Source: Rhodocollybia butyracea (taxonomy: Eukaryota; Basidiomycota; Agaricomycetes; Agaricales; Omphalotaceae). Taken from it: DNA of 64,000 nt. Shown piece by piece: positions 8,603 through 64,000 of this stretch (its first letter is position 1; each line of letters begins with the position of its first letter). A model generated the notes under the pieces. It made no database searches. It had not been told where the DNA came from and saw only the letters and a program-made list of their open reading frames with translations. The position numbers and the translations under genes were made by a program. The stretch spans positions 1 through 64,000 of the forward strand of contig JADNRY010000021.1 of NCBI GenBank assembly GCA_015501585.1. The letters are read 5' to 3'.

Positions 8603-8804
8603 TTGTTCATTCCTTTCTTTTTCTACACATACGTTACTTAGTACTTCTCTCTCTCTCTTCCTTACTCTCATCTCGCTCTTACTTTATCGTCTCACAATAC
8701 AACATCTGGCATGCATATCCGACAACGTCGTGATTGTGAGTTGTTCTTTCTTCTTGTGTAGCTTGTCGCCGTTCTCAACTTGAACGTCAAGCTTCCAGGA
8801 ACTA

Positions 8805-27392: not shown

Positions 27393-27422
27393 TAATATAG
27401 AGACTAAAGCTGTGACTAGAAA

Positions 27423-29384: not shown

Positions 29385-29419
29385 GGCAAGGGGGACATCA
29401 GTATGTTGATAGAAGTGGA

Positions 29420-31735: not shown

Positions 31736-31743
31736 ACACCGAC

Positions 31744-32529
31744 TTGCCAGAGCCTCGGGAGCTTACAAGTCGGAGTGATTCCAATGATCCCGAATTTTTG
31801 AGAGCCAATAGGGTGGAAAGTGTTGTAATTAATTCACGATCCGAGGATGCTTTTATTTTACCAGTAAAAATTGAACAGATACACTCACCTTTTTATTTTG
31901 CCTTGATAGACTCAGGAGCATCAAGAGCATTCATAGATATAGCCTTAGCAAACAGCCACCCAGAAAAAATGGAACAGTTGGGAATTCCAATCCCTCCGAA
32001 GCTGTTTGATGGGGAATATACCTCTGCAGGTAATATCACACATAAATTCAAAACTAACATTGTATTAGAGAATGGAGAGGTACAACATGTTACCTTTTTA
32101 GTAACTAAGCTTCATCCAGACACTCCCATTGTGCTTGGGCTGCCATGGTTGCGAGAATGGAATCCTTTAATTGACTGGAAGAACCTAAAAATATCTTTTG
32201 AAAAAGGAGTTCAACTTTCAGGAGCCAGAGTGAAGGACATACCTGAGGGTAATACCCCTAAGGTACCAACACCCCGGACAAAGGAAAAATTCCGTAAGTA
32301 TGGATCAGTTCCAACAATAGAAGAAGTAGAAGATGAGGAGATAACAAAAGAGAAAAGAAAGAAAAAATTAACACTGGAGGAACCACTTCTGTTGAGAGAA
32401 GAGGAGGTAGAGATGTACAGACAACAAGGACAAAGACAGAAGGAAGGTACCGAAAAAAATAAGCAAAAGCACAGAGAAAATCAACAAGGTACCAGTACAT
32501 CCGAGACCCCAACAGAAAACTCCACATAA
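31744..32529 (+). CDS. chromovirus aspartic protease region
   Basis: The frame is open from upstream of 31,726, so the -1 product would begin inside Gag. The catalytic motif is ALIDSGASRAFID, followed by HKFKTNIVLENGEVQHVTF and PIVLGLPWLREWNPLIDW, the usual flap and C-terminal motif of retropepsins in gypsy elements. The frame ends at 32,529 in a Lys/Glu-rich linker. The RT frame is reached if one A is removed from the A7 run at 32,453-32,459, so the break is probably a one-base insertion rather than a second programmed shift. Confidence 0.85.
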   Translation: MPEPRELTSRSDSNDPEFLRANRVESVVINSRSEDAFILPVKIEQIHSPFYFALIDSGASRAFIDIALANSHPEKMEQLGIPIPPKLFDGEYTSAGNITHKFKTNIVLENGEVQHVTFLVTKLHPDTPIVLGLPWLREWNPLIDWKNLKISFEKGVQLSGARVKDIPEGNTPKVPTPRTKEKFRKYGSVPTIEEVEDEEITKEKRKKKLTLEEPLLLREEEVEMYRQQGQRQKEGTEKNKQKHRENQQGTSTSETPTENST

Positions 32530-34555
32530 AAAAGAACAGGAAGTAAAAGGAGAAAAAAATAAGGTACCAATAGATACAACTCCAAAAAAGGAGGAAGAAA
32601 AAGGTAAAATAAATCCCAAAAAAGGTAAGCATCAAGGTAAGAAGGATAGGTGGGCAAATACAGAAGGGGGGAGGAAGATTGGCCTGGTGGGAGCCACTAC
32701 CTTTGCAAAACTTGCACAATCTGGCTGTGAAACCTTCACATTGCATCTCAAACCAGATGGAACCATCTATGAAGAGGAGCAAATGTTGAAGGAGGAACAA
32801 GCAAGACAAGCAGAAGCGGAGGAGGCAAAGCCTAAGCCAGGAGAGGAGGAGAAGAGATATACCCTACCTAACAGGGTAGAAGCTGGGGCAAAAGACCAAG
32901 AGTCTTTGGAGAAATTTGTTCCAAAACAATATCATGAGTTTGCAAAAACATTTGCAGCAGGAGAGGCAAAGACATTGCCACAGCATAGACCCTATGATAT
33001 GCACATTGAAACAGAAAATGACCAGCTCTCACCCCCAGGAAAATTATATAACATGTCGCAGACTGAATTACACTCACTCAAGGAATATATTGATGATATG
33101 CTGGATAAAGGATTTATTAGGGCATCAAGTTCACCAATTGGAGCTCCTGTATTGTTTGCAAAAAAGAAAGATGGGAGTTTACGGTTGTGTGTCGACTATA
33201 GGGCATTGAATAAACTCACAAAGAAAAACCGATATCCATTACCCTTGATTGGGAACCTTATTGATCAACTCGGAAAGGCAAAAATATTCACCAAGTTAGA
33301 TCTCAGGGTCGGATATAACAATATACGGATAGCAGAAAACCATGAATGGAAAACTGCCTTCCGTACTCGGTATGGTTCTTATGAGTATTTAGTCATGCCG
33401 TTTGGATTAACTAATGCACCTGCAAATTTCCAATACTTCATGAACGATATATTCAGAGACATGGTGGACAACTTTGTGGTAGTTTATCTTGATGATATAC
33501 TGATATTCTCAAACAATGAGAAGGACCATGAAGAACATGTAAGACAAGTACTGCAAAGATTAGAAGAGCATGACTTACATGTGAAACCTGAAAAGTGTGA
33601 TTTTCATCAGACATCAGTAGAGTACCTAGGTATGATTGTTTCACCCGAAGGGATTTCTATGGATCCAAAGAAGGTTGAAGCTATTCAAAATTGGCCAACT
33701 CCAGAAAACATGAAAGACTTACAATCATTTTTGGGGTTTGCTAATTTCTATTGGAGATTCATAGACAATTTCTCAGGAATTGTGAAGCCTCTCACTAAAT
33801 TACTTGGAAAGGACATTAAATGGGAATGGTCCAATCGGTGTGCCTCAGTATTTGAGTTATTGAAGAAGGCATTCACAGAAGCACCAATTTTACGACACTT
33901 TGATCCGGAACTACCGATCATTGTAGAGTCGGATGCTTCTGATTTTGCAGTTGCTTCAATTATATCTCAAATTGACCCGATTTTGAATGAGATCCATCCT
34001 GTAGCATTCTTTGCACGTAGTATGATTGCAGCAGAATTAAATTACGACATCTATGACAAAGAGATGTTAGCAATTGTTGAGTCTTTCAAACAATGGAGGG
34101 CATACCTAGAAGGATCCAAGTACAAGGTAGAAGTATACTCTGATCATAACAATCTACAGTGGTTCACTACCACCAAACAATTGACGCGCCGACAATCTCG
34201 TTGGTCTGAGTTCTTATCAGGTTTTGATTTCCAAATTAACTACCGGCCCGGTAGACTTGGCGCGAAACCAGATGCATTGACACGGAGATCGGATGTATAT
34301 CCCAAGAAAGGGGAAGTAGAGAAAGCAAACAGTATGAATAATAAAGTATTCATCCGACCAGAACAACTGCTGAATGCTTCCCTTGTCATGAATGAGGAGG
34401 CTGACCTGAACAAAATCCGTAGGTCCAAAAAAGACTATTTTTGGAATAAGTTTGTGGAGATTGCCAAGTCAGATGACCCCGGAGTATGGAAGTACGAAGA
34501 TCAACTTCTATTAAGGAATGGTCTAGTGTATGTACCTGATGATGGGAGTCTCTGA
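32460..34555 (+). CDS. chromovirus reverse transcriptase and RNase H
   Basis: Open in this frame from about 32,453. Reverse transcriptase motifs: KKKDGSLRLCVDYRALNKLT, FTKLDLRVGYNNIRI, EYLVMPFGLTNAPANFQ and the catalytic VYLDDILIFS. RNase H follows: IVESDASDFAVASII, EMLAIVESFKQWRAYLEG and YSDHNNLQWF. The frame then meets TGA (34,553-34,555) in a context where a CGA arginine codon would continue straight into the integrase. The stop thus looks like a single C-to-T change at CG. Confidence 0.93.
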
Positions 34556-35890
34556 ATGGAAATTATGAAAGCCCATCATGACCACAAACTAAGGGGACAT
34601 CCTGGTATCCGTAAAACCATCAGTCAAATTCAAAGGACTTATTTCTGGCCAAGGATGGGACGTGATGTTAAAAGGTATGTGAACAGTTGCCATGAATGTA
34701 TGAGGGCCAAAAGCTCTCGGCAGCGACGACTTGGATTTTTAAAACACCTACCTATTGGAGAAAGACCATGGTCCTCAATATCTGTGGATCACATTGTAGA
34801 ATTACCAGAATCAAATGGTTTTAATGCAATAATGGTTGTAGTCTGTAGGTTAACCAAGCAATCCATCTTTGTGCCCTGTCATACCACAGACACAGCAGTG
34901 GATTTATCCAAGTTGTTCATTAAGTATGTATTCTCTAAACATGGACTACCAATGGATATTGTGTCAGATCGAGGAACCCTGTTTGTTTCCAAGTTCTGGA
35001 AGGCACTGTGTGAACTGTTAGATGTAAAGCAGAGCTTTTCCACAGCCTACCATCCCCAAACAGATGGTCAAACTGAAAGAACCAACCAGACTCTGGAACA
35101 ATACCTGAGGATGTTTGTAAACTATGATCAAGATGATTGGGAGGAGTGGTTACCTCTAGCAGAGTTTGTGTATAACAATAGCCCAAGTGATGCCACTGGT
35201 ATATCACCATTCTTTGCAAATAAGGGGTTCCATCCTCGTCTAACCATTTCTTTAAAAAATGTACCAAACCATGCTGCTCACCTAAAGGCAAAGGATATGA
35301 ATAGCATCAACGAATATTTAAAAAGAGAAATTACACGATCCAATGAGCAGTATGCTAAATACTCAAACCGAAAAAGAAGGGGGATACCGGAGGAGAAATT
35401 TCAAGTAGGTATGGAGGTGTGGCTGAACTTAAAAAACGTGGAAACCAAGAGGCCAGCGAAAAAATTAGACCACAAGAGGTTTGGTCCATTTAAAATCTCT
35501 GAGAGGGTCTCGTCACATGCATATAGGCTAGAGTTACCTCCAACAATGCAAGGAATACATGATGTATTCCACATTGACTTACTCACTCCACATCCAAAAG
35601 AATATTATGCAAGTAGAAACCCACCTCCGCCTCCTCCAATTGAAGTAGATGGCCTTGATGAAAATTACGAGGTGGAAGGTATTTTAAACAGCAGAAGGAG
35701 ATATGGAAAATTGAAGTACTTAGTGAAATGGAAAGGTTATGGACCTGAACATAACACCTGGGAACCGATTGTAAACATGATCAACTCACAGGAAGCGGTT
35801 GAAGAGTTCCATAACCAAAACCCAAACAAACCTGCACTCAAGGACAGAGAATGGGAGCAGGAGTCCCAACACAAGCCTTGGGAAGGCTAG
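34556..35890 (+). CDS. chromovirus integrase with C-terminal chromodomain
   Basis: In the same frame as RT, separated only by one TGA. An HHCC zinc domain (HHDHKLRGHPGIRKT ... CHECMRAK) is followed by the DDE core: SVDHIVELPES, DIVSDRGTLFVSKFW and HPQTDGQTERTNQTLE. A GPFKISERV and VFHIDLLTPH segment follows, then a chromodomain: YEVEGILNSRRR, LKYLVKWKGYG, HNTWEPIVNM. Chromodomains in this position direct integration to marked chromatin in chromoviruses. As it stands it would need readthrough or its own start at ATG 34,556. Confidence 0.93.
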   Translation: MEIMKAHHDHKLRGHPGIRKTISQIQRTYFWPRMGRDVKRYVNSCHECMRAKSSRQRRLGFLKHLPIGERPWSSISVDHIVELPESNGFNAIMVVVCRLTKQSIFVPCHTTDTAVDLSKLFIKYVFSKHGLPMDIVSDRGTLFVSKFWKALCELLDVKQSFSTAYHPQTDGQTERTNQTLEQYLRMFVNYDQDDWEEWLPLAEFVYNNSPSDATGISPFFANKGFHPRLTISLKNVPNHAAHLKAKDMNSINEYLKREITRSNEQYAKYSNRKRRGIPEEKFQVGMEVWLNLKNVETKRPAKKLDHKRFGPFKISERVSSHAYRLELPPTMQGIHDVFHIDLLTPHPKEYYASRNPPPPPPIEVDGLDENYEVEGILNSRRRYGKLKYLVKWKGYGPEHNTWEPIVNMINSQEAVEEFHNQNPNKPALKDREWEQESQHKPWEG

Positions 35891-40980: not shown

Positions 40981-40988
40981 GCTTGTAA
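40981..40988. repeat. KDZ element target duplication, left
   Basis: GCTTGTAA, identical to 56,351-56,358. In LINE orientation TTACAAGC; one copy restores the LINE frame WRLYK-RLRYP. Confidence 0.95.
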
Positions 40989-40997
40989 CAGCCGCTT

Positions 40998-41155
40998 CAG
41001 TAGCATTATTTAAATACCCCCAGTACCTGTTGTGGAGATTATGATAATAAACCCAGTAAGCTACTGTACAGTAAACTTGTAGGGGCATTAATATACCCCT
41101 CAGCTGGGGTGCGTATTAGGTATTGGCCTACGTATCCAGGTGGGAATTGATTATT
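40998..41155 (+). repeat. KDZ terminal inverted repeat, left
   Basis: Starts CAGTAGCATT, contains CTGTACAGTAAACTTGTAGG and ends where the 103-bp array begins. Nearly identical to the inverse of 56,190-56,342. Confidence 0.9.
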
Positions 41156-42765
41156 ACCATATTTGGATGATACTGCCACTGCTGGGGGGATTAAAATACC
41201 CCCTCAGACAGGTGCGTACTATATATTGGCCTGCGTATTTGGGTGGGAATTGATTATTACTGTATTTGGCTGATACTGCCACTGCTGGGGGGATTAAAAT
41301 ACCCCCTCAGACAGGTGCGTACTATATATTGGCCTGCATATTTGGGTGGGAATTGATTATTACCGTATTTGGAGGATACTGCCATTGCTGGGGGGATTAA
41401 AATACCCCCTCAGACAGGTGCGTATTAGCTATTGGCCTGCGTATCCAGGTGGGAATTGATTATTACCGTATTTGGATGATACTGCCCCTACTGGGGTAAT
41501 TAAAATACCCCCTCAGACAGGTGCGTACTATATATTGGCCTGTGTATTTGGGTGGGAATTGATTATTACTGTATTTGGATGATACTGCCACTGCTGGGGG
41601 ATTAAAATACCCCCTCAGACAGGTGCGTACTATATATTGGCCTGCGTATTTGGGTGGGAATTGATTATTACCGTATTTGGCTGATACTGCCACTGCTGGG
41701 GGGATTAAAATACCCCCTCAGACAGGTGCGTATTATATATTGGCCTGCATATTTGGGTGGGAATTGATTATTACCATATTTGGAGGATACTGCCACTGCT
41801 GGGGGGATTAAAATCCCCCCTCAGACAGGTGCGTACTATATATTGGCCTGCGTATTTGGGTGGGAATTGATTATTACCGTATTTGGAGGATACTGCCACT
41901 GCTGGGGGGATTAAAATACCCCCTCAGACAGGTGCGTACTATATATTGGCCTGCATATTTGGGTGGGAATTGATTATTACCGTATTTGGAGGATACTGCC
42001 ACTGCTGGGGGGATTAAAATACCCCCTCAGGCAGGTGCGTACTATATATTGGCCTGCGTATTTGGGTGGGAATTGATTATTACCGTATTTGGATGATACT
42101 GCCACTGCTGGGGGGATTAAAATACCCCCTCAGACAGGTGCGTATTAGCTATTGGCCTGCATATCCAGGTGGGAATTGATTATTACCGTATTTGGATGAT
42201 ACTGCCACTACTGGGGTAATTAAAATACCCCCTCAGACAGGTGCGTACTCTATATTGGCCTGCGTACTCGGGTGGGAATTGATTATTACCGTATTTGGAT
42301 GATACTGCCCCTACTGGGGTAATTAAAATACCCCCTCGGACAGGTGCGTACTATATATTGGCCTGCTTATTTGGGTGGGAATTGATTATTACCGTATTTG
42401 GCTGATACTGCCACTGCTGGGGGGATTAAAATACCCCCTTAGACAGGTGCGTACTATATATTGGCCTGCGTATTTGGGTGGGAATTGATTATCACTGTAT
42501 TTGGAGGATACTGCCACTGCTGGGGGCATTGAAATACCCCCTCAGACAGGTGCGTACTATATATTGGCCTGTGTATTTGGGTGGGAATTGATTATCACTG
42601 TATTTGGAGGATACTGCCACCAGACAGGTATGTACTATATATTGGCCTATGTATCTGGGTGGGAATTGATTATTACCATATTTGCATGATACTGCCACTG
42701 TTGGGGGGTTTAAAATACCCCCCTCAGACAGGTGCATACTATTTATTGGCCTGCATATGTGACCC
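41060..42765 (+). repeat. subterminal 103-bp satellite array, left (about 16 copies)
   Basis: GATACTGCC recurs every 103 bp (for example 41,169 and 41,272). The unit contains ATTAAAATACCCCCTCAGAC and GGTGGGAATTGATTATTAC. Some units are variant, with CTACTGGGGTAATT or missing the central part (about 42,610). Both strands are open for long stretches only because the repeat lacks stops in some frames. Confidence 0.93.
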
Positions 42766-43015
42766 AACAACAGGAATCCAAGATAGAGACACAGAATATG
42801 TACTCTCAAGGTGTAATCCAAGTTGAGCCCTCTAAGGCCTAAGATCATATGTATAGCAAGTAGGCGTCTGCAACAGTACTAAATTGGTGTATGAAGAAGA
42901 AAAATTATTAAATATCAAATCAAATCTGGACACTAAGAACTCTGAGTTGAATCATCACAAAAATTATCCGAGTTAAATCAGCACGCCAAAATATAACAAA
43001 ACACACTCAAGTCCT

Positions 43016-45997
43016 TTACTCCTGCCCCCGTGATCCCTGAGCACTACGTCGGCGGCGAGTGGAATGTCCAGGAGCAGACCCTACATTGTCCTCTGCTGCT
43101 TCAATCTCAATATATTTACGCTTTACCTTCCCTTTGGACTTTTTCACCCCATGAGCAATGATACTGTCCAAGACATACCAGACATCAGCTACAGCTAAAC
43201 GCCAATCTTCAAAGTTTGCTGGGTGCTTGTCTCGCAACTTTCCACTATGTGTATCATGACCCCACCAAAGGAGGGTGAGCATGATCAACAAAAATCCATC
43301 AACACCTCCCTTGTCTCGAAGACTATTCCAATCAAGAGACTCTGGACGTACAAGCTTATTTTTCTGCACCCGACCCTGCGGCTGGATTGAGCGCCAATAA
43401 GTCCACCACTCTTCACGCCACCTTGAGCCAATCTCAGGAGTCCAAACCTTCATCATCCTTCGGGGATTCCGACGATTCTTGAACCACGCCGCAATCTGAG
43501 GAGGTCTGAGAGCCAGAGGAATCTTCCCACAGCTCTCCTCGTACCCAAGCTTATGTTCAAACTTTAGATAAAGCTTGATACAGTCAAACCATTGCGTATC
43601 CCAGGTAACGGTGGGCCGGAAAACGTTGTAAAATTTTGAATCCATTCTGGAAACTCTGCCATAGGCCATTCCCTATCCAGAGAGGCAATATCCTCTGATA
43701 CCATGTCTTTGTTTGGTGCTACTGAACAAGCATCGCTGGGCACAACACTTGTTGACTGGGTTCCGCTGGCTTCGGAATGAACCTTGCCAACTGCTGCGAT
43801 GGCCAAACAAGCCCCGCTGGGTGCGGTGCTCGTTGAACGGCCGTTACTGGGGGCGGAATGAGCTTTGTCAGGTGTAACACTCGTTAAACAAGCTTCCACG
43901 GGCGTAACACTTGCTCCATGGGATCCATCGGGTGCAACGTCAGTTGAACAAGATCCACTAGGAGTGGAACGGGTGTTGTCAGGTGTGACACTTGTTGAAC
44001 AAGCTTTGTTCGAAGCCGTGGAAGATGTGACATTCATTGGATGACCCTCATCAGGTACAGCTCCCGTTGAATGAGGTATGGGAGGAGCATCGTCGGGTGC
44101 AACACTCGTTGAGCAAGCATCACCTGAGGGTGTGGAACGAGCATCATCGCGTGCAACACTAATTGACCGAGTTTTGTCTGAGGGTGCAGAAGGACTATTA
44201 TTGGGTGCAGCACTCATTGAACGAGCGTCAGCTGAGGGTGCGGAATGAGCATTATCGGGTGCAACACTCATTGAACGAGTTTTGTCTGAGGGTGGAGAAG
44301 GAGTATTATTGGGCGCAACACTTGTTGCACGAACGTCATCTGAGGGTGTGGAACGGGGATGGCCGGGTGCAGCACTCGTTGAACAAGCTTTGTCTGAGGG
44401 CGTGGAATGAGTATTATCGGGGGAAGCACTCGTTGAATGAGCTTCGTCGGAACATGCGGAATGAGCATTGCCGGGCGAAACACTCGTTGAACAAACTTCA
44501 TCTAAGGGTGTACAATGAGCATTGGGCGCAACAGTTGTTGAAAAAGCTTTACCAAGAACGGGGTGCGTTGAACAGGCACCTAGGGTGGTGGAAGAGGCTT
44601 TTCTGGGTGCGTCAGATGCGACGCTGGTTGAACGAGCAGAATGAGCTATGTTCGGTGCTACACTCATCGAGTCGATTGAATGAACCTCGTCGGCGTTTGT
44701 TCCTGTACTCTCTGCTACTCCTTTAGCTCGAAGTGCTTCTTGGGCCGCTGTGAGCTCCTGGGGGCTGAGCGCTCGGTCCCGACATTCCTGTGCACCTAAA
44801 TTTCATTTCATATCACATATTTTTGCGAACAAGAAAGAACTCACTGAATACCTTTAACCCGAATTTTATCATGAGGTTTTCAACCTGTTGAAAGCCTGTT
44901 GGGTCGAAATCTGGCCATGTAGTAGAAGTGCCTTTAATTGTCCCTGAGTGAAGGCTGGAAAGGAAAATATTAACGACGAACAAAATAAAATATGCACTAC
45001 GGAAATATGTACCTTCGTACTTCTACATTCCCTCCACTCTCTGGAATTGGTCCGCACAGCAAAATCGAGGTAGCCATGCCAAAATAGTCCTGGCAAGCAT
45101 CGACAAGCTTCTGCAACAATGCGGACAAGCTTACCAGAGCCCTTCAAAAAAATTAATAATGTGAAAGAAAGGATTACAAAAACACATACAGATAGTAGTC
45201 CAAGCCCGTCTTAGTCCCTGGGTTATCCCTTGCGAAGTTATATTCCTTCATATTGCGAGCATGGTGCTCTTTGATTAATCTCCGGACCTACACCAATGCG
45301 GTCAGAGCAAGCGGGTTGGTGCAAAATTAATCATACCTCTACCCGCACTTCCTCTGGCTCAGCCGCCCACAGTTTTTTGGTCACTTCGTTAGCAATGTTG
45401 ATTGTCGCTGGCCTTTTCTCCCCAGCCTCAATTGCGATTTTCTCTCGGCGTGCTTTCTCTTCCAAATAGACGGGTTTAATCTTCTCAGTCCAGTAGAGGG
45501 AGGAGTAGAACTGCATCTCCCTGGGCCGACGGGGAGCATTGGGAAGTACCTCTGCAACACGCTCAAACAGAGAGTAAAGAATATTTTCTTCTCCCTTGCT
45601 GCTGCGACGATTACGTGCATTGAACCAGTCACCAACTTTCTACAACAAAAAATGTCTCAACGTCAATACCAACGCATGATAATTTTGAGATAAATACCTT
45701 TCGACGGTCTTTGAAATTGGCTTGGAACTCCTTCAACTCTTCCTCCGTTTTATCGTCCATTTCGATGTCCAACGCTTCGTCTTCAGGATCTTCCGTTTCA
45801 TCTGTTGCATCCCCCTTCGCTGTTTGCTCCCCGAATTTAGCATAAAGCCTTTTGGTCATCAGAGTGTAAAACTCCCCAACTTTTCCTGCCTCCCGCGCTG
45901 TTCTCCACTCGGTAAAGTAACGTTCCAGATATACAAGTTTGTTTCCTGTCACCCAGCCAGGCCTTCCTCGAGGGTTTCCGGTTTTTCCTTTTGGCAT
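43016..45997 (-). CDS. large transposon-associated protein with Ser/Thr repeats (one frameshift)
   Basis: Exons 45997-45698, 45639-45337, 45287-45190, 45141-45013, 44954-44845 and 44795-43016 join in phase to about 905 residues. Start MPKGKTGNPRGRPGWVTGNK; then DWFNARNRRSSKGEENI, REMQFYSSLYWTEKIKP, YFGMATSILLCGPIPESGG. A repeat region (about 44,670-43,690) of degenerate 18-residue units such as SVAPDNAHSAPSADARSM follows. The end is DWNSLRDKGGVDGFLLIML and a basic tail. Sequences like the N- and C-terminal parts are very common in basidiomycete genomes as unnamed hypothetical proteins. The frame changes by one base at the T4 run (plus 43,630-43,633): EFPEWIQNF must join YNVFRPTVTWDTQWF. Function unknown. 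Confidence 0.72.
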
Positions 45998-46093
45998 TTT
46001 GGAGGAGGTTTCTATGCAGGACAACGTCTGTTTGCGCGGTAAAGTTCTAGTACCTATGTATAACCTCTAGTATCTGTACGGAGTTTGAACGGG

Positions 46094-46440
46094 AACATCA
46101 TACCAGGGTACCAGGCGCCACTGACCTCCTTTGCATCTGACATTCCGGTCCAAACGTCTTGCTCCTCCGCCTCACATACAGCGTTCAAATGCTGGACATC
46201 TTGCTCCTACAGAATGCAGCGTCAATCGGGAAAGGATAAATGGGGGGCTGCTTACCTCCACCTCACGTACAGTTTTAATTTAGCCTTGGTTCACATTCGG
46301 TTTCATGGACTGACCTTCTTTGGAGCTACAGAATGTAACGTTAACCGGGAAGGAAGGATCCACACTGACCTTCCTTGGACCTACAGAATGTAACGTCAAC
46401 CGGGAAGGAAGGAACTACCGGGCACTGCTTACCTCTCCCT
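46094..46440. repeat. three degenerate copies of an ACAGAATG-GTCAA-CGGGAA repeat
   Basis: CTACAGAATG followed by TAACGT(T/C)AACCGGGAAGGAAGG occurs at about 46,326 and 46,381, with a weaker copy at about 46,206. The spacer lies upstream of the large gene's start and downstream of the next gene, so it may include regulatory sequence. No coding content recognised. Confidence 0.5.
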
Positions 46441-46699
46441 AACGTACAATTCAATCCAGCTTTGGTTCACGTCCTGGTTCATGCCCTGGTTCAAGTCATA
46501 CTCAAATATACAGAAAAAAAATGTATATTGCACAAAGGCCATAACTCGTAAGCTAGCGGGTACTGCGGCTGATAGAGGTGAAGAATCTCCCTCAACATTT
46601 CTACTTTCTTCGCCTGTCTCCTGGGGTTATGTCGAGGGAACCGAAAATAATATACGCAGGTACAAACCTGTTTACCCAGATGAATCTGGTCTCTCTCTC

Positions 46700-47555
46700 T
46701 CACTGGTTATTGCGGCTGCTAGAGGCTGCAAAATCGAAAGCATCGTTGAGTGAGGGGGTGATGCGCACAGAGTGCAGTGTTCCGTCAGCACGGCGTTTGC
46801 GTACTGCTTTCTTAGCCTGGTTTCTAGAAGAATTATGCAGTAAATGGAACAGAAAATAACACACAGAGACGAACCTGTTTGCATAGATAGTGGTGCCAGG
46901 GGAGCCCTGCTGTCTTACAGCATAAATATCTCCCAACGGGGATTCACGGGATTTACGGTAGCGAGATGAACCCGAAGAGTTAGAATCGAGAGTAGACTCT
47001 ACCTCAGTGCTGAGCACAAGAGAGCTAGCGAACTCCTCTTCCAGGCTGCCTGCGGAACGATCTCTGGGTTCAGAAAGGGATTGAAAAGAGGACGACACCA
47101 AAGATGCAGAGCTTCGACTTTGCACCGGCATATGAGGTGCTGACGGCCAGGCAGCATCGATTTGTGTGGTTGGGAAGATCGTGGTTGCACGCTGTGCCGG
47201 ATACCCCTCGGGATGTCGGCTAAGGAATATTTCCAGTGCTGCACGCCATCCTTTGGCACTTTGGAAACCACTGCCAGAAACATTGGTAACGTTTGGGTGT
47301 GCGTCGGACCTGCAAACGCTCAGCAATCCTTGAATCCTTGTCAAAAGAGCAAGCAGACCAAACATACCATTGATCGAATATTCCTATGTGGATACCCTTC
47401 CACACCACTATAAACTTCCATGCTTCCTTGCCTCGATTTTCTGCTTTCCCGTAATACGGGATCTGCCGTGCATCGGTAAGGACTATGTCCCCGTCGTTAG
47501 TCTGCGCCATATCGTCAAGCTGCAGCCAGTAAATATCACTCTGCCGTCCTCGCAT
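46700..47555 (-). CDS. KDZ cargo protein with an RNase-H-hybrid-binding-like motif
   Basis: Three exons, 47555-47368, 47309-46875 and 46823-46700, join in phase to 248 residues. Start MRGRQSDIYWLQLDDMAQ. The segment KFIVVWKGIHIGIFDQW, then, across the intron, VSGSGFQSAKGWRAALEIFL, has the pattern of the viroplasmin/RNase H1 hybrid-binding domain (a VVWKG-x-GIF-x-W start, a VSG-x-S-Q-K middle, an aliphatic helix end). The rest is Ser-rich and disordered with a basic end QAKKAVRKRRADG. A nucleic-acid-binding role is inferred only from that motif. Confidence 0.65.
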
Positions 47556-47838
47556 GGCCTATAAAACACTCAAAAGTTAGCCAATCTCAAAAATGAGGAA
47601 GCCTGGCCAACACACCATAGAGGGAACGCTGTGGCAATGAAGCAAGCCGTTATAGCTGACTTCTCCCACGCAGCTCAGAATGTCAGAAGAACGTACTTAT
47701 AGATTTCATAATTATTAACAGAGTATAAAAATTGGGCTGCCGAACTAGAACTATTGATGCAACGGTTTTGCAGCGACTTTGGAAGACCTGGGAGGAAGAG
47801 TTAAGCAACGTACTTGAAGCAAGCTTGAACATTTTCAT

Positions 47839-48339
47839 TTACCGTCTGATTCGTTCTTTTTCCGCCAATACTTCCCGATTTCGCATCCTGTACAACTCTT
47901 GTGCACGGCGACGCTTCATGATTTTTTCTGACTGCTGTTCTAGGGTAAGCTCTTGCTGCCTATGTGAATGACGGTCAGCAAAGCAAAGAATAGCCGAAAA
48001 AAACTAAACGATAGAGACCGAGCATACTGAGCTCTTGCTTGCTGCAGCTTTGTTTCTCGTTTTCTGTTCGAAAGTCAAACATGAAGAGAAATGAATACTT
48101 GCGTGACAAACCGTAGATAGAGTTTATGGTCACTTTCTTGCTTGTGCTTTTGACGACGAAGGATACGCCTGAACTTGACACATTCCTCTATTTCATTCTC
48201 TTCAATTCCAACGTGACGAAGGTGTATTTCTTCAAGGACTCCGCGCAGCTCAAGTTGGGTGAAATAAGGAATTTCAAGTTCTGTTATCAGTAAGCACTGG
48301 TAGGAAGAAACAACTTTGCAGTTTTGCCTTACCTGTCAT
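47839..48339 (-). CDS. small basic, probably coiled-coil cargo protein
   Basis: The first exon is seven bases, ATGACAG (48,339-48,333), then an intron, then an exon from 48,280 reading ELEIPYFTQLELRGVLEEI and FRRILRRQKHKQESDHKLYL. Further exons give KRETKLQQARAQ and QQELTLEQQSEKIMKRRRAQ, ending REVLAEKERIRR at TAA 47,841-47,839. The junctions near 48,090 and 48,040 are not fully resolved. No known domain; the composition (many Arg, Lys, Glu, Gln) suggests a helical nucleic-acid or protein-binding factor. It lies between the hybrid-binding-like gene and the dioxygenase, all on the minus strand. Confidence 0.6.
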
Positions 48340-48948
48340 GGTGGGATAAGATAAGGTCAGGATTCAAACACGATGGTGTGAAACGCGACCAGGTGATCTT
48401 AGCGCCAAGGTGAAAGATAGCCATTTAGGTGAAAGATCGCCACAAAACCCCTTGAAGCAGCGATTAATGAACGATTGTGAACTCAGTGCGCTGTAATCGC
48501 AGCTTATATAGACTCCCACCTATCCCAGCAACCTTTAAAGCAAGTTTGAAGCCATAAGTTATTTATTAAAGCATCTGTACTCACACATCGTATTTATCAG
48601 GCTAACGGGATTGTATGCCTAAATATAACCAAGTTACTTATCTCAAGTGTGACTACTTATCTCAAGTGAGTGAGTACCAGAAGGGATTGTGGTTTGACTA
48701 CTGCTCGCCGTCATCATATCAGGTAAGTAAAAAGGCGGGTTTTCAAGCTAGTTGTATTTCTCAAAGTTTCCTTCACAAGCGGTTCAACGTCTCAAGTACA
48801 TCTGAAGTTCTTAAGAGTTGCTTATAGGTGAGCGATGTGCATTTCACGCAGCGGTATATTAAAAGAATGATCTACGAAGGCGTTGGGTGTATAGTGATAA
48901 AAGTACGGGTTACATTACGGGTTACAAGGTGGGTGTACAAAAGTCCGT
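48340..48948. other. intergenic region within the KDZ element
   Basis: Between the dioxygenase 3' end and the small basic gene. TTATCTCAAGTG is repeated at about 48,635 and 48,658. An ORF at 48,615-48,827 has no similarity and I do not call it. Confidence 0.45.
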
Positions 48949-50753
48949 TCAGCGGTAACGAGCGCGTTTCAACACAGGGAGATCGACTTCATCATCGCTA
49001 AGCTCGCTGAGTTCATCGAGGCCGGCCTCTGTCCTCTTCTTCCCTTGCCAATCTCCAGCAACTAGGTCCCTCCACCGGGTGAACTTACCCAGGTTAACTT
49101 TCCACTGACGCACCCGCTCGCGTTCCCTCTGCTCCCTTTGCTCAGGAGAAGCCTTGGAAAACCAGGTCTTATCCGAGCACCAGCCGTTGTTCCTCCAACG
49201 GAAAAGGCCCCCGCAGAATATTGGATGATGGAGTACCGGGTTTCACGGGAGGAGACAGGAATGTTGGAGTGGGTAATGAGCGCGGAAGGGAAGAGAATGG
49301 TGGACCCGGGCGGGAATCGGATAACCAACCGGAGGTTCCAGAGAACGAGGTGGCCTCCCTTGTCAGGGTCGAAGTCTCCTGCGGCTGTATCGGTGCACCA
49401 GCCGTGAGCGAGATTTCCGGCGTCGATGTGAGGGGGAGTGGTGGTCTGAGGGCCCAAGTTTACCGTGGTAGCTGCAAAGACTGTGCTGGGGGATGTAGAA
49501 CGAAGGCGAGGATCCCTAGCGAGATGATCGGTGAGCGTCTCTTTGTACTCGCAGTACATTTTATGGCTGAACGAATTAAACAAAGCTAGGGAGTTTTCAG
49601 CGAAAAGGAAAGGAAGAAATTTGTAGAACGTACAGTTGGAAAAGCCGATGACCCGCAGCATGTTGCTGTCTAGCATCAGCTTTTGCATTTCGGCTTGGTT
49701 GACCTCGCCGCTGATTTTCACGTTCCCGGGTACCTGCCGTCCGCCGCCGTACCCAATGCCAGTGGCTCGGGCAGTAAAGCCACCTCGAGGGTGACTGGTC
49801 TCCTTACTCGTGAAGGTACTTCCTTCGCTGCATCTGGCGAGGGCTGCGTTCAACCCTTGCAGCACGGACTGCCACTCTGGACCTTTGGAACCCGGCGGAA
49901 CACCGCCAAGCACCGCCATAATTCGATCGGACGCGTCGACAAGAATGATGCAAGCCTCGCCGTCCCAGTTGAGCAACTTGAGGCCGGTTTGGGTGAGAAC
50001 GGAGAGGTTGCGCCAGATTCGCTGAAGGCCGGAGGATAGTTGGGAAAGCGAACGGACGCCTGTCCAGCCGGTAGAGGAAACGGGGAGGGAGGAGGCGTCG
50101 AAATCACTGAGGGAAACAGGGGTGGCACTCTGGGCGTGCTTCATGGCGCAAGGTTTAAGGTCGCTGGTTGATTTGCGAGCCTGTGCTGCGGCAGAACGTT
50201 TGGCACGTTCCCTGACGCGTTTGGCAAGGTTCTTTTTCTGAGATTTGGAACGAGGGCCTGAGTTGACAGAAGTAGGGGAAGGCGTGAGCGAGAGAGAGCC
50301 AGGAGGTAAGGCTGTAAGAGGGTCGCGAGGAAGAGGAACAAGAGCCGGGGTACCCAGGTCTTCTTCGGCCAGAAAAACATCCTCGAGCTCGACATCTTCA
50401 TCGTCGAGAATCTCTTCTCTATCCTCGGCATCCATCCGAACCCGGTTGTCGTTCTGAAGAGCTGACGCAAGATTAAAATGATCAATCTGCAACTTGAGAG
50501 CGTGAAAAGGAGTGCTGTCGGGCTCTAGAAGTCGAGGGAACGTTGGGTCAGAAAATGACACGAGGATTAGACTACAACGAGAGAAAGATCGGCCTGTAGG
50601 CTCCGGCGTCGCATGGACCCAACAGCCAGGAGATGAACCTTGCTCTCTAGAGGGAGTAGGATCATCGGAGCTGTTGGGTCGCGTGTGACGGCCGGGAGCG
50701 CATAACAAGGGAGGATTGCAGAGAAAAATCTGTAAACATGACTTACCAGGCAT
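48949..50753 (-). CDS. TET/JBP-type 2OG-Fe(II) dioxygenase of the KDZ element (one frameshift)
   Basis: Members of this family oxidise 5-methylcytosine or thymine in DNA. Seen: an acidic N-terminal stretch, a basic SQKKNLAKRVRERAKRSAAA, then the double-stranded beta-helix core: FAATTVNLGPQTTTPPHIDA (HxD near 49,430), LAHGWCTDTAAGDFDPDKGG, LVLWNLRLVIRFPPGSTILF, ITHSNIPVSSRETRYSIIQY (distal His near 49,270, 2OG-binding Arg near 49,240). After YSAGAF the frame should move by one base at the T4 run (plus 49,202-49,205) into FRWRNNGWCSDKTWF and a charged tail ending at TGA 48,951. As written the frame runs on to 49,062 with unrelated residues. The likely start is ATG 50,753 (MPG followed at once by a GTAAGT donor); the N-terminal exons are not resolved. 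All active-site residues are present. Confidence 0.85.
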
Positions 50754-50941
50754 GGTTGCGGTGGAGAAAGAAATGTCTTGCTTGTGGTTGAAAGTGATCA
50801 ACGAACAACGATTAGACGCCCGTATGGCGTAAAACTAATGATCAAGCGATCGAGCGCCCGTGTGATCGGGGTTCCGGTTCAGTTATTCCGTTCCATTATC
50901 ATCAGTCAATCGCAGTTCACTGCTCATCCACGACCGTCATT
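50754..50941. promoter_or_regulatory. bidirectional promoter between TET/JBP and KDZ transposase
   Basis: The two start codons are 188 bp apart and face away from each other. The spacer has ATGATCAAGCGATCGAGCG and CGTGTGATCGG with repeated GATC-like motifs. Shared regulation of methyl-base oxidation and transposase is implied by the layout. Confidence 0.55.
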
Positions 50942-53900
50942 ATGAACTACGGGCGCAACAAGAATAAACTATTTAAATCCACTCCACGCCCTAACATTGC
51001 CACCACTATCAGCGCATCGCAGGGACGAGTCTTGCAAAGTTCTCGCCCAGTTCCTGCAGAGCTTGGACCGACCCTTCCAGAGGAAGACACGATCACATTC
51101 GATGCTGCCGCAGACACAGAGAACTTCTCTCATATACTGAATTCGACCCTTCAGATTTCCCAAGATGCACCCTTCGAAGATGCTGCTACAGATCTCATCA
51201 TGCAGCTCAAGCCCATGGGTCCAAAAACAGTATGACTCTGTTTCATATACATATATGGCTTGCTGAAATGATATACCTCAGAGGCCCGAGATATACACCT
51301 TTATTCCAGCACGAGATGAATTTTTGGATGATTTGCTCTATGGGAAGGGCAAGGGTTAAATGGAGAGAATTGTGCAGGCTGTAAATCGCCAGATCCAGTG
51401 TTTCGGTGTGCAGATGAAGAATGTGCGGGATTAGGGATGAGATGTAAGGAATGTATGGTGAAATCGCACCAGTGTTTGCCATTTCACTGGATGGAGGTGT
51501 GTTTGTGCCCTGCCTGGATATTGGTTATGCCTAAAAATAATAGGAATGGGATGGTAGCATGTTCTGGACCCGAACTCTACAAAGTTTGGGCCTTCGCATT
51601 CAGCTTGGTCATAAAGCTGGCTCCGCTTGTCTTCTTCCCCAGCCAGCGCATACTGATTTTGCTGTCCTGCACACCAACGGTATACATGAAATCAACCTTG
51701 ATTTCTGTGGATGTCAGCCCAATCTTCTGCAACGCACACAGCTGCTTCATAGTCATTGGTGGCCGGGGACTGTGTTCTCCCCTCAATCGGCATGTACGTT
51801 CATGTCTCTTCGGCAGTTCCACACCTTCAATTGCATTGCCAAAATTCCTGCGTATGATTACTATAAGGGGTTAGAAACAATGACAGAGAATCGCACCAGA
51901 GAGAAGCCAAAGGTAACTATAAACCCGCATATTATAGAATATGGCTAATACAGGTTCTATATAAAAAGGATAGGTACCGTACACTACTGCAGTGCATGGT
52001 CGAATGGCGGCATCTCAAGATGTGTAAACGAGCAGGGCGGGGACATGATCCTAGTGGTGTGATGGGCACTCAACCAGGAGAACTAGCGGTAGAATGCCCT
52101 GCGTGTCCTCATCCAGATAGGAATATTCCAACAGACTGGAAACGCTGGCCATCAGAGCTTCAGTATGTCTAATATGTTCCCATACTCCATACTAATGCTG
52201 GTATATCATGGTAGGTATCTATTTTACAAATTTGTTGCTGTAGATGCCAATTTCCGACTTCGAAACAAACTTGTTTCGACACATGCCAAGAATCCTACTC
52301 TGGGTGATGGATTTGCATATTTTGTCCCCTACAGTGACTATATTGATTGGGTCAAGAAATTTGTTGACCAAACTGAGGTATAATATTATTAATATTTGAT
52401 AAAATTGATGATGATAGCTTGCTATAGATCAGTTCTTGTTCTGGCTTTGCTGCAATATTTCTGGCCAATTTAAAAAACATCAAGGGGCTGCAAACGACGG
52501 GCGTTGGAGGCTGCTGTTGTGGGAGACATGGATTTTGGCTCCCAAATGGCATAGGTGACCTTCAGAAAGGGGAACGGTATGTACAGCTTCTGTAATCATT
52601 TATTTCCATTCTAATCTAACAATATAGGTACTGTAACATGGATTACATTTTTGCACAAGCTGTCAAAGGCCTGGATTGCATGATCATATTGTCATATGAT
52701 ATTGCATGCCAGTGGGGACGAAATTTCTGGGTTCGGCTTGAGGAACTTAAAGACAAAATTGATTTTCGCATTACAGAAGACAATCTTATCTTCCTCATCC
52801 CAAAATTCCATCTGCCGGCTCATCAACCTGGGTGCCAAGTTCCATATTCCTTCCACTTTACCCCAGGCTGTGGTGAGACACACGGCGAGGTGATTGAGGG
52901 AAATTGGGCTATCACAAACAAAGCTGCGAGCCAAACAAAAGAGATGGGACCTGGAAACCGTGCTGTCACTCTTGATGATATTTTTGGACATCATAATTAT
53001 CGACTTTTGCAGAATCTAGACAGGCTATTAGGGCAGAGACTTCTAACAGCACTGCGCCAGGCAAAAGAACAAGGCCAAGGTTTTGAGAGGTTTTCAGAAG
53101 GGTTAGAGATGAATGTGGGGAAGGAGGTGTTAGATAAATGGAAAACGTTGGTGGTGGAATGGGAAAAGGACCATTCAAAGTTATGTCCTTATGAGACTTT
53201 GAATGAGGGTATGGTTCACAACCAGTGTATAACATTTTTACTGATCTTACCTTGAATAGATAAAAATGCACTCAAGAAGGTTGAGATCCGCCTTGCCAAT
53301 GAAGAGCATGAGGCAATGGTGCGCGGGACCATGGTCCACAGCTCCAGTGTAACAGTATTTCTGGTGCTTGGACTCAACATTGAAGAACAGCAACGGCAGC
53401 TAGAGGTTGATTTAAAGATCAGCTCTCCCTTCACTCCTGCACAAACACTCACTATACAAAAACAGCAAACTGTCATTCTAAGACATATTCAGCAATTTTG
53501 TGGACTCCAGGCAACATTCATGCCTCGTCTGCAAGATTTTCTCACTCCATCACAGCGACATAACCTTGATGACCCTGACACAGATAAACCAGAGAGAATC
53601 AAGCTGTTTATGCCATCAGAGCTTGCTAATCAGGCCGCCCGTAGTACTGCATGTGCCGGAAAAATCTGGGAGCAGGAAGGAGAACTGAGGCAAGGTGAAG
53701 CTATAGATGCTCTGAATGCCGTGCGACAGGGGCTCCGAGCAAGAACACTTACCAACAACTTCAAATTGAAGAATATCACAGGTCAGAAACATAATACTCG
53801 AGCTCAAGGGGTGCTGCGGCATATCGATTTGAATATCAACTCAAACAAGATACGGTATCGGTTTGCACGTAATGCCCTTTTCCGACTATGGGGTCATGGA

Positions 53901-54619
53901 GATTGGGAGAAACAACTGCAGATCTTGAAGGATGGGGATGTACGGGGTTTGAATGAGCGGGCTCTAAATGCAGAAGAAATTGCTCAGGAGGAATACCTTA
54001 GAGAAAGGGGTTTACTGAATGAACTGCAGACTGCAGGCATTGCATCACCTGGGGTTGCTGTGGTAATGGGTGATACAGGGAAACGTACTCTTTCCTGGAT
54101 CTGGTATGATGCTTTGGTTGATTCTGATGACCCTGAGTTTCAGGATGGTATGTGTGACATGTTCCTTTCTTGCATACAAGCAATCAATTTCCAATAACTA
54201 ATTGTCATTTGGTTATGTTTCTAGCTCTACGAGTTGAGTGGTGTAAGGCTCGTGCACGGTCACTTCGGTGGAAGGAAGAAGTATTACTTCTTTGTGAAGA
54301 GCTTAGACGGATGAAGGAATTTTCAAGATGGAAAGCTAAGTGGTGGAAAAACCAGATTGGCCGTCGGGAGAACTTAGGTAAGGAGCTTCAAGAGGGACTA
54401 ACAGCATACGCTTTGCAACATGCAGCTTTTGAAGAGCATCAGGCAGAATTAGTAAGTTCAAGATGGGATTATGTGGTTGAACATGCAAAAGGAGTCAGGC
54501 CTGATATTCCAAACCTTGAAATTCTGTTTGAAAATGTCTTGGATATAGGGCACAGCTACGCAGAGGATGAAGATATGGGACTTGAGCAGGAAGTTGAAGG
54601 TGGGGTTATGGTAGAGTAA
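50942..54619 (+). CDS. KDZ transposase with CxC2-like cysteine cluster (one frameshift)
   Basis: Nine exons: 50942-51229, 51282-51496, 51544-51912, 51969-52162, 52215-52377, 52428-52576, 52628-53208, 53260-54147 and 54225-54619; about 1,080 residues once one base is allowed for. The Cys cluster reads NCAGCKSPDPVFRCADEECA and MRCKECMVKSHQCLPFHWME. The core follows: SLGLRIQLGHK, LHTNGIHEINLDFCGCQ, EWRHLKMCKRAGRGHDP, VAVDANFRLRNK, TTGVGGCCCGRHGFW, LSYDIACQWGRNFW, PKFHLPAHQPGCQ and GEVIEGNWAITNKAAS. The acidic residues usual for the family are kept (Asp near 52,243 and 52,698, Glu near 52,895). The C-terminal third is helical. The G3 run at 51,342-51,344 is one base short: DEFLDDLLYG must join EGQGLNGENCAGC. 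Confidence 0.9.
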
Positions 54620-54694
54620 TGCCAATCAAAACAAGTCTTGGTACTATACATAATTGATTTCCACTTCAATATGAAGCCCAATGTATAATATGCA

Positions 54695-56230
54695 CAAGAG
54701 GTATTTTAATCCCCCCAGTAGTGGCAGTATCATCCAAATATAGTAATAATCAATTCCCGCCCAAATACGCAGGCCAATATATAGTACGCACCTGTCTGAG
54801 GGGGTATTTTAATTCCCCCAGCAGTGGCAGTATCCTCCAAATACAGTAATAATCAATTCCCACCCAGATATGTAGGCCAATATATAGTACGCACTTGTCT
54901 GAGGGGGTATTTTAATCCCCCAGTAGTGGCAGTATCCTCCAAATATGGTAATAATCAATTCCCACCCAAATACGCAGGCCAATATATAGTACAAACCTGT
55001 CTGAGGGGGTATTTTAATCCCCCCAGTAGTGGCAGTATCTTCCAAATACAGTGATAATCAATTCCTACCCAAATACGCAGGCCAATATATAATACGCACC
55101 TGTCTGAGGGGGTATTTTAATTCCCCCAGTAGTGGCAGTATCCTCCAAATATGGTAATAACCAATTCCCACCCAAATACGCAGGCCAATATATAATACGC
55201 ACCTGTCTGAGGGGGTATTTTAATCCCCCCAGTAGTGGCAGTATCTTCCAAATACAGTGATAATCAATTCCTACCCAAATACGCAGGCCAATATATAATA
55301 CGCACCTGTCGGAGGGGGTATTTTAATTCCCCCAGTAGTGGCAGTATCCTCCAAATATGGTAATAACCAATTCCCACCCAAATACGCAGGCCAATATATA
55401 ATACGCACCTGTCTGAGGGGGTATTTTAATCCCCCCAGTAGTGGCAGTATCTTCCAAATACAGTGATAATCAATTCCTACCCAAATACGCAGGCCAATAT
55501 ATAATACGCACCTGTCGGAGGGGGTATTTTAATTCCCCCAGTAGTGGCAGTATCCTCCAAATATGGTAATAACCAATTCCCACCCAAATACGCAGGCCAA
55601 TATATAATACGCACCTGTCTGAGGGGGTATTTTAATCCCCCCAGTAGTGGCAGTATCGTCCAAATACAGTGATAATCAATTCCTACCCAAATACGCAGGC
55701 CAATATATAATACGCACCTGTCGGAGGGGGTATTTTAATTCCCCCAGTAGTGGCAGTATCCTCCAAATATGGTAATAACCAATTCCCACCCAAATACGCA
55801 GGCCAATATATAGTACGCACCTGTCTGAGGGGTATTTTAATCCCCCCAGCAGTGGCAGTATCCTCCAAATACAGTAATAATCAATTCCCACCCAAATACG
55901 CAGGCCAATATATAGTACGCACCTGCCTGAGGGGGTATTTTAATCCCCCCAGCAGTGGCAGTATCATCCAAATACGGTAATAATCAATTCCCACCCAAAT
56001 ACGCAGGCCAATATATAGTACGCACCTGTCTGAGGGGGTATTTTAATCCCCCCCAGCAGTGGCAGTATCAGCCAAATGCAGTAATAATCAATTCCCACCC
56101 AAATACGCAGGCCAATATATAATACGCACCTGTCCGAGGGGTATTTTAATCCCCCCAGCAGTGGCAGTATCATCCAAATATGGTAATAATCAATTCCCAC
56201 CTGGATACGTAGGCCAATACCTAATACGCA
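54695..56230 (-). repeat. subterminal 103-bp satellite array, right (about 15 copies, inverted)
   Basis: Same 103-bp unit as on the left in opposite orientation. A higher-order pair is visible at about 55,030-55,740: units with CTTCCAAATACAGTGATAATC alternate with units with CTCCAAATATGGTAATAACC, so two-unit blocks (206 bp) have spread. Confidence 0.93.
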
Positions 56231-56342
56231 CCCCAGCTGAGGGGTATATTAATGCCCCTACAAGTTTACTGTACAGTAACTTACTGGGTTTATTATCATA
56301 ATCTCCACAACAGGTACTGGGGGTATTTAAATAATGCTACTG
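56190..56342 (-). repeat. KDZ terminal inverted repeat, right
   Basis: Inverse of 40,998-41,155, ending TAATGCTACTG. One visible difference lies in CAGTAAGTTACTG against CAGTAAGCTACTG. Confidence 0.9.
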
Positions 56343-56350
56343 CTATGGGT

Positions 56351-56358
56351 GCTTGTAA
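56351..56358. repeat. KDZ element target duplication, right
   Basis: GCTTGTAA, identical to 40,981-40,988. Confidence 0.95.
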
Positions 56359-62453: not shown

Positions 62454-64000
62454 AGGTATAAGGTATAAGGTGTACACGGCCCAGTCGGCATACCGACAGT
62501 GGTCCCGCAAGGGAAACAGCCGGTCCCTACGACAGCGCAAGCAGCGAGCTCGACTCCCGAGGAGAAGGTAGACTGCAGGTCCAGCGTAGGGATGGGTAGC
62601 AAGGCCCCAGAGCGGAAAAGAGGCTAGCTAATGATAAAGTACGATGAAAACCTTTACTACTCCCATTATCCACTATCAGAATCCTCATCCTCTCCTTCCG
62701 AGCCGTAGTCCAACGGAATGCCTGAGATAGCTGTAGTCCAAAGCTGTATGGCTTCGTGGATAAATTTTGCCGTGGAAGAGACATCCGACCAGGAAAAAAT
62801 ACGCTGTTTGAGATAAAGTAACGCATCCCCATCACTGAGCTGGCCATGTGGGATCGAAGTGAGCGGGGACAATGTAGCGATGGCACGGAAATGGACACGT
62901 AGGTGAACCAAAGGAGGAATTGCCGTGCATTGCAGGAGAACATGTTCGGGTGTCTCAAACGGCGCATGACATAAACGACACGAGAAATCGGTTGGTAACT
63001 GTCCAGCGGTAAGGGTACATTTGCCAGGTGTGGCCTGAAAAAGGCCGGGAGCCAAGGAACCACATAAGAGACGAGTGATGGAAAGCCGATGGCGAAAGTT
63101 TTTAACTTGTAAGAGGTAATGACGAAGATGTAATGGTAAAGCCAACGATGGACCCGTTTCCTGTGGTTCGAGCCGATCTTTCAGGAGGCGTAATTTGCTC
63201 ATAGAATTAAGGTTGTTATTCAGATGGTGAAACGTTGTATTAGAAATGTCAGTGATAATAGAGCGAATATGTGGAGGAGACAAGTCCCTCAGAGGAGGGA
63301 GGCGATCCTGAGAGCCTGGCAAATTGGAGATTGCCCAATCGACATCCATAAGCCAACACGGATGACCGTTAGAGCGTAAGTTATTGTTCGCTACTAAAGC
63401 GAGGGCAATGAGGCTATTGTCCGGTGCCGAAACAAGATAAGAAAGGAATTTGAGACAAAGTTCCAATCGGCGGGTCCGGAGAGGCAAAAGACCAAGTTCG
63501 GTGAAGAGAGGAGAGATGGTGGAGTGATGAGGAAGACCAAGGATGCGACGAAGACACCGCGTTTGAATGTCAAATAAAGGGTTCATTACTGATGAATCCA
63601 CGTCGACGGCGACGTCGCAGCCATGAGTGAGGTGGCAATCAATGAGAGAAAAGTAAAGGAGCAGAGCGACATGAGGAGGGATCCGTGACCTGCCAACTAA
63701 CCGTTTGCATCCAAAAACACTTCTGGCGGAAGCGACGGCGGCTTCAGACTTCTTTCTATAATGTGTTGCAAAGATGTCGCGTGAAGAGGATTGTAGCCAG
63801 ACGCCGACGTAAGGCCAGGATTGTTTTAGTTGAAGAGGGCAGTTGGAGAGTGTGAGACGGGGAAGCGGGTTGGGCAAAGGACCAAAAATCATAAACACAG
63901 ATTTTTTCACATCGAGTGAAAGGAAATTGTCGTCACACCAGGATTCGAGCTTGTGAAGGTGTCTTTGGAGGCCATGAGGTGTTCGCGAGATAATTGCAAT
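62454..64000 (-). mobile_element. LINE retrotransposon 2, 3' part (runs off the window)
   Basis: Same family as LINE 1, highly similar over the shared reverse transcriptase. The 3' UTR (62,665-62,480) ends in CCTTATA-type tandem repeats at a tRNA-Lys-like D arm. Confidence 0.9.
62666..64000 (-). CDS. LINE 2 ORF2: C-terminal reverse transcriptase region (partial)
   Basis: The frame is open from the window end: SRTPHGLQRHLHKLESWCDD, NFLSLDVKKSVFMIFGPLP, AVDVDSSVMNPLFDIQTR, CRLCHAPFETPEHVLLQC and a final acidic EGEDEDSDSG. The Cys/His cluster resembles the zinc-knuckle-like end of many LINE ORF2 proteins. It shows no lesion in 445 codons, unlike LINE 1, so it may be a younger copy. The catalytic motifs are outside the window. 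Confidence 0.9.
   Translation of the reverse strand: MAIISRTPHGLQRHLHKLESWCDDNFLSLDVKKSVFMIFGPLPNPLPRLTLSNCPLQLKQSWPYVGVWLQSSSRDIFATHYRKKSEAAVASARSVFGCKRLVGRSRIPPHVALLLYFSLIDCHLTHGCDVAVDVDSSVMNPLFDIQTRCLRRILGLPHHSTISPLFTELGLLPLRTRRLELCLKFLSYLVSAPDNSLIALALVANNNLRSNGHPCWLMDVDWAISNLPGSQDRLPPLRDLSPPHIRSIITDISNTTFHHLNNNLNSMSKLRLLKDRLEPQETGPSLALPLHLRHYLLQVKNFRHRLSITRLLCGSLAPGLFQATPGKCTLTAGQLPTDFSCRLCHAPFETPEHVLLQCTAIPPLVHLRVHFRAIATLSPLTSIPHGQLSDGDALLYLKQRIFSWSDVSSTAKFIHEAIQLWTTAISGIPLDYGSEGEDEDSDSG

Follow-up and report, generated by a model that had tools for sequence, protein, structure and literature searches.

A KDZ transposon carrying a TET-fold dioxygenase and three further genes in Rhodocollybia butyracea

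We analysed a stretch of 64,000 nucleotides of Rhodocollybia butyracea DNA (contig JADNRY010000021.1, positions 1 to 64,000; hereafter the window), and identified in it a KDZ transposon of 15,363 bp inserted into a long interspersed nuclear element (LINE), with five genes between its ends: a transposase, a divergently oriented gene for a dioxygenase with a predicted TET fold, and three further genes that we call X, C, and DE. An earlier note, made from the letters of the window alone, had proposed such an element, with five genes between inverted termini, two inverted satellite arrays, and a head-to-head layout of the TET and transposase genes, and all of these features are borne out by the models and alignments described here. 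The features are listed below in window coordinates; introns in the gene models were set manually at GT-AG sites, and the sibling is a close copy in the same genome, described further on.

40982-40988 (no strand): left target duplication CTTGTAA, 7 bp
40989-56351: whole transposon, 15,363 bp, host Rhodocollybia butyracea
40989-41123 (+): left end, 9-bp tip CAGCCGCTT (common to many other copies), then inverted repeat inward
41082-42698 (+): left satellite array of 103-bp units, whose AAATACCCC copies run in the same sense as the left tip
43016-45997 (-): gene DE, encoding a large protein that begins MPKGKTG and contains a region of 18-residue (54-bp) repeats
46700-47555 (-): gene C, 248 amino acids, RNase H1 N-terminal domain (PF01693)
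47751-48339 (-): gene X, basic protein of 124 amino acids
48949-50753 (-): dioxygenase of predicted TET fold, start at 50753 as in P0001, the sibling's deposited model
50754-50941 (no strand): gap of 188 bp separating the divergent starts of TET and transposase
50942-54619 (+): transposase, CxC2 zinc cluster and KDZ core
54700-56258 (-): right satellite array of 103-bp units, in the opposite orientation to the left array
56217-56351 (-): right end, inverted repeat, then 9-bp tip CTATGGGTG
56352-56358 (no strand): right target duplication CTTGTAA, 7 bp

A 531-residue spliced piece of the transposase matched the KDZ family (PF18758) with an E-value of 2.8e-59 over profile positions 3-217, in agreement with the family named in the earlier note, and matched CxC2 with an E-value of 3.8e-38. 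The TET and transposase starts lie 188 bp apart, and the gap between them is possibly a shared promoter. Gene C has an RNase H1 N-terminal domain above the Pfam cut-off (E-value 1.7e-7), and a protein search with it returned one homologue (49% identity over 98%). Gene X had no Pfam family above the cut-off; gene DE gave a sub-threshold Pfam match only, and three matches in a protein search, all from the same species (best 7,994 word-sharing candidates scored). The predicted structure of the C-terminal part of DE had a mean predicted local distance difference test score (pLDDT) of 42 and was not used. Deposited protein models fuse neighbouring transposon genes (X, C, and DE in P0122, from the sibling; C and DE in P0124). 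In our model DE is a single gene. We keep X, C, and DE separate because the stop of gene C is placed the same in two related elements, on C463 and C1027, and because the protein P0121 resembles gene C at both its start and its end.

The terminal inverted repeats agree at 109 of 110 positions (positions 10-119); the outermost 9 bp of the two ends agree at only four of nine, and the tips are of CA..TG form. The 8-mer GCTTGTAA is present identically at 40981-40988 and 56351-56358 and had been taken for an exact 8-bp target duplication; however, the first G of its right-hand copy (56351) is the element's own last base, and the duplication is the 7-bp CTTGTAA. The element interrupts a minus-strand LINE frame, and when it is excised in silico together with one duplication, a single open LINE frame of 917 codons results, just as the earlier note had observed. 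We also matched a 300-base join of both flanks against the genome: of 24 matches, 12 (96-98% identity) cross the junction uninterrupted, and nine more (74-76%) cross it too; the remaining ones are the two halves of the window itself and one short piece. The insertion into the LINE is precise. An assembly chimera was considered and rejected, because the LINE frame is restored, empty paralogues exist, and syntenic copies are found elsewhere in the genome. Other copies of the interrupted LINE lie nearby: a partial second copy occupies 62666-64000 of the window, and a copy just past it (C506:64796-65093) has the site uninterrupted.

A search of the genome for further copies with the same ends, which the earlier note had suggested as a check, gave at least 40 left-end matches with both window ends counted (best 40 of 148 candidates), and 60 matches to the right-tip pattern including the window's, against none for a control pattern. 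About 25 tip pairs were matched by eye from the two match lists, and 20 were used. Fourteen of these 20 other copies have perfect 7-bp target duplications, three have one mismatch (two of which, on C781 and C257, have identical flanks), and three have two or more. The eighth base to the left matches in none of the 14 perfect copies, which rules out an 8-bp duplication; to the right it matches in two of the 14. Fifteen of the 20 tip pairs span 3.0-3.5 kb. For example, L072 (C1305:201995-205049; 3,055 bp) has in common with the window element the outer 101 bp at each end and nothing inside, and its two longest open frames have 100 and 112 codons. Judged from such sequences, the L072-like copies, mostly about 3.1 kb long, form a non-autonomous family.

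The sibling (C69:1-13463), cut by its contig start, shows 98.4% identity to the window element over 8.4 kb, and further relatives are found on C1050, C463, C1027, C1268, C650, C1205, and C633. Among deposited R. butyracea proteins, P0001 and P0122 would belong to the sibling, P0003 and P0124 to the C1027 copy, and P0123 to the C1050 copy. Two diverged elements with both ends and target duplications keep the five-gene layout: C463 (120203-132402; duplication AAATTCC, 7 bp) and C1027 (154676-167765; duplication GCTGCAT, 7 bp), the inverted repeats of the latter reaching the tip itself. The head-to-head arrangement of TET and transposase is kept in C463, C1027, and C1268, the relatives that retain both genes adjacent.

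The two satellite arrays contain 15.0 and 15.2 copies of the 103-bp unit. Each end has 15 instances of the motif AAATACCCC, among them the one in the tip itself, and every instance is oriented like the tip beside it; the motif is absent from both strands of the 11,870-bp interior and of 48,620 bp of flank. In the relatives we counted exact copies within the fetched stretches: the sibling has 26 at its single visible end (median spacing 103 bp); C463 has nine inward-facing copies per end (median spacing 139 and 47 bp); C1205, at 47-bp spacing on both sides, has nine on one and 33 on the other, not counting a 34th that is part of another tip; and C650 has six. Since the motif is kept across two unit lengths (103 bp and 47 bp), we suggest that AAATACCCC copies are putative protein-binding sites, most simply for the transposase. 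Few or no exact copies are found in C1050 (three), C1027 (one), C1268 (one), and C633 (none), and these motif-poor relatives speak against a requirement for the exact form.

The dioxygenase keeps the HxD motif, the distal histidine, and the arginine that had been read from the window (H at 49430, D at 49424, distal H at 49271, R at 49238). Among 120 homologues these residues are found in 113, 114, 113, and 105, respectively, with five to six unaligned. The top fold matches of a structure model of the homologue P0002 are CcTet, NgTet1, and TET2, and the dioxygenase is, on this modelling, of TET fold. Pfam searches weigh in the other direction: Pfam Tet_JBP had no match in the window protein, four matches with none above the cut-off in an exon-wise search of the genome, and matches to two of 23 relatives, both below the cut-off. 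PDB sequence searches with the window TET (alone and as a profile) and with the homologue P0088 returned no TET match; the fold comparison supplied it. The genome has at least 103 exon-level TET-like matches (best 90 of 217 candidates), a large TET-like expansion, as well as 144 KDZ exon-level matches.

By ungapped spacing the window TET has asparagine at H+5 (CcTet position 331) and cysteine at H+11 (CcTet position 337). AG-type transposon TETs have glycine or serine at 331 and aspartate at 337, so the window TET is not of AG type by these residues; PE-type transposon TETs have HxE, whereas the window TET has HxD. Human TET2 has asparagine at the position where the window TET does. CcTet of Coprinopsis cinerea shares 15% identity with the window TET and, by the same spacing, has Gly331 and Asp337 in place of Asn and Cys (PMC11040006). 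It is a speculative, rather unlikely extension that the protein represents a fourth transposon TET type (HxD, Asn at H+5, Cys at H+11) with TET2-like selectivity for 5-methylcytosine (5mC), within a five-gene counter-silencing unit in which TET would act on DNA methylation and the RNase-H1-N-domain protein on RNA:DNA hybrids or double-stranded RNA.

The tips, duplications, empty sites, and syntenic copies bear out the earlier claim of a complete mobile unit with cargo; what the earlier note had missed are the residues that mark the TET active site, described above, and apparent single-base frame losses, all at homopolymers, in the transposase (near 51342), TET (near 49210), and gene DE (near 43634). 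The sibling lacks the transposase and DE losses and has the TET loss in common with the window, plus one more frame loss and a stop in its own TET. The shared TET loss lies downstream of the metal- and co-substrate-binding residues; past it, the window frame stops at 49062 and the frame of the relatives at about 48949. These losses are the evidence for regarding the window copy as a dead relic, with the intact state in other copies, a reading to which we give slightly less than even odds. They are set against the kind of loss involved, as expected from assembly error: all three are single bases at homopolymers, and all 25 gaps in the 8.4-kb interior alignment of window and sibling are one base long, and the majority of them, though not every one, lie in runs. 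Nineteen of the 25 gaps are concentrated in the final 1.25 kb, next to where the sibling's contig ends (L039, C69:1-1250). Because the losses are single-base and homopolymer-placed, and the gaps are clustered at that contig end, the losses look like long-read error, with decay as the alternative.

Codon comparisons against seven relatives comprised 23 gene pairs, each compared over 30 codons or more, of which 19 gave a value and four were synonymously saturated. The ratio of nonsynonymous to synonymous divergence (dN/dS) was 0.06-0.37 across the 19 pairs, 0.17 for TET in all three of its comparisons, and 0.11 (a single value) for gene X. On these codon patterns the genes appear to be under purifying selection. 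Two observations count against this, besides the frame losses: for 13 of the 19 pairs the synonymous distance is greater than 1, which makes the ratios rough, so that we trust a low ratio and not its exact value; and the relatives carry stops, up to six per gene.

We consider the best explanation, at a probability of roughly 60%, to be a Kyakuja-like KDZ cut-and-paste transposon whose TET delays the silencing of its own element. The transposase, through its CxC2 cluster and KDZ core, would recognise the near-identical ends, assisted by the arrays of inward-facing terminal-motif copies, and would duplicate 7 bp of target when it inserts the unit; the dioxygenase, encoded head to head with it, would most likely oxidise 5mC on or near the element and so delay silencing, and the RNase-H1-N-domain, small basic, and large repeat proteins would be maintained accessory genes. 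TET-carrying elements have been proposed to escape silencing (Kojima 2025, PMC12730594). The same paper describes TET genes passing passively between transposons, and the TET could likewise be passenger cargo that moves with the element and either serves the host or has no function. With at least 90 scored TET-like candidates in the genome, an element may not depend on the product of the copy it carries, and the window TET loses its frame. We hold the passenger reading improbable, given the head-to-head layout kept in C463, C1027, and C1268 and the TET dN/dS of 0.17 in three of three comparisons.

Observations in other fungi pull in two directions. Laccaria bicolor genes with higher fractions of 5-hydroxymethylcytosine (5hmC) and 5-formylcytosine are mostly silent, which tells against unmasking by TET, whereas in C. 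cinerea higher 5hmC together with low 5mC marks more active genes (PMC8889193); unmasking is therefore a possible reading and not the sole one. The L. bicolor pattern favours another role, in which the base oxidised by TET persists and itself serves as a mark for repression or regulation, so that the element is kept quiet or its activity is timed, and methylation is not removed; with the C. cinerea pattern opposed to it, we think this doubtful, and continue to prefer a TET that delays silencing.

Elsewhere in the window, positions 27420-35890 contain Ty3/gypsy-type genes of a long-terminal-repeat element (reverse transcriptase and chromodomain integrase), and two open frames that resemble each other and are separated by about 5 kb (7255-8733 and 12636-13973) suggest a local gene duplication; a Pfam search with the 7255-8733 frame gave no match.

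For a TET-carrying transposon, the ends are now placed exactly, the duplication length is corrected, and the conserved cargo is listed, together with non-autonomous copies sharing its tips. The question whether transposon TETs help their own element thereby becomes testable.

For TET and KDZ in fungi, the founding work is reportedly Iyer 2014. Kojima 2025 (PMC12730594) describes complete Kyakuja transposons from Agaricomycetes that carry a TET gene, make duplications of 7 bp, and have CA..TG tips, so that neither a complete TET-carrying KDZ element nor the anti-silencing idea is new; what sets the window element apart as a variant is the cargo, the arrays, and the TET signature. The available main text of that paper has nothing on Kyakuja cargo or arrays, and thus does not mention the three further genes and terminal-motif arrays of the window element; for KDZ elements of Marasmius oreades, terminal motifs were characterised in a supplement (PMC8290104). 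The window element fits Kyakuja in its KDZ transposase and TET/JBP gene, and, because of its 7-bp duplication and CA..TG tips, is best described as Kyakuja-like and not as Zisupton or Dileera: Zisupton and a Puccinia Dileera family have 8-bp duplications (PMC12730594), whereas the window element and its copies have 7 bp. Two Laccaria Kyakuja families are without inverted repeats, which are present here from position 10 (their absence is not known to be a defining trait; PMC12730594); this difference would favour a KDZ lineage other than Kyakuja, be it Zisupton, Dileera, or one not yet described, an unlikely assignment given the duplication length and tips. The TET-carrying IS3EU and Harbinger/PHISTA elements, both of rust fungi, similarly combine TET, a transposase, and a further gene, but they have other transposase families, 6-bp or TA duplications, and an alpha-kinase or unnamed third protein (PMC12730594). 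Cryptococcus KDZ1-3 resemble the window element in their KDZ transposase and long inverted repeats, and differ in having CxC1 in place of CxC2, 8-bp or 4-8-bp duplications, a length of about 9-11 kb, and no TET mentioned in the available text (PMC12810828).
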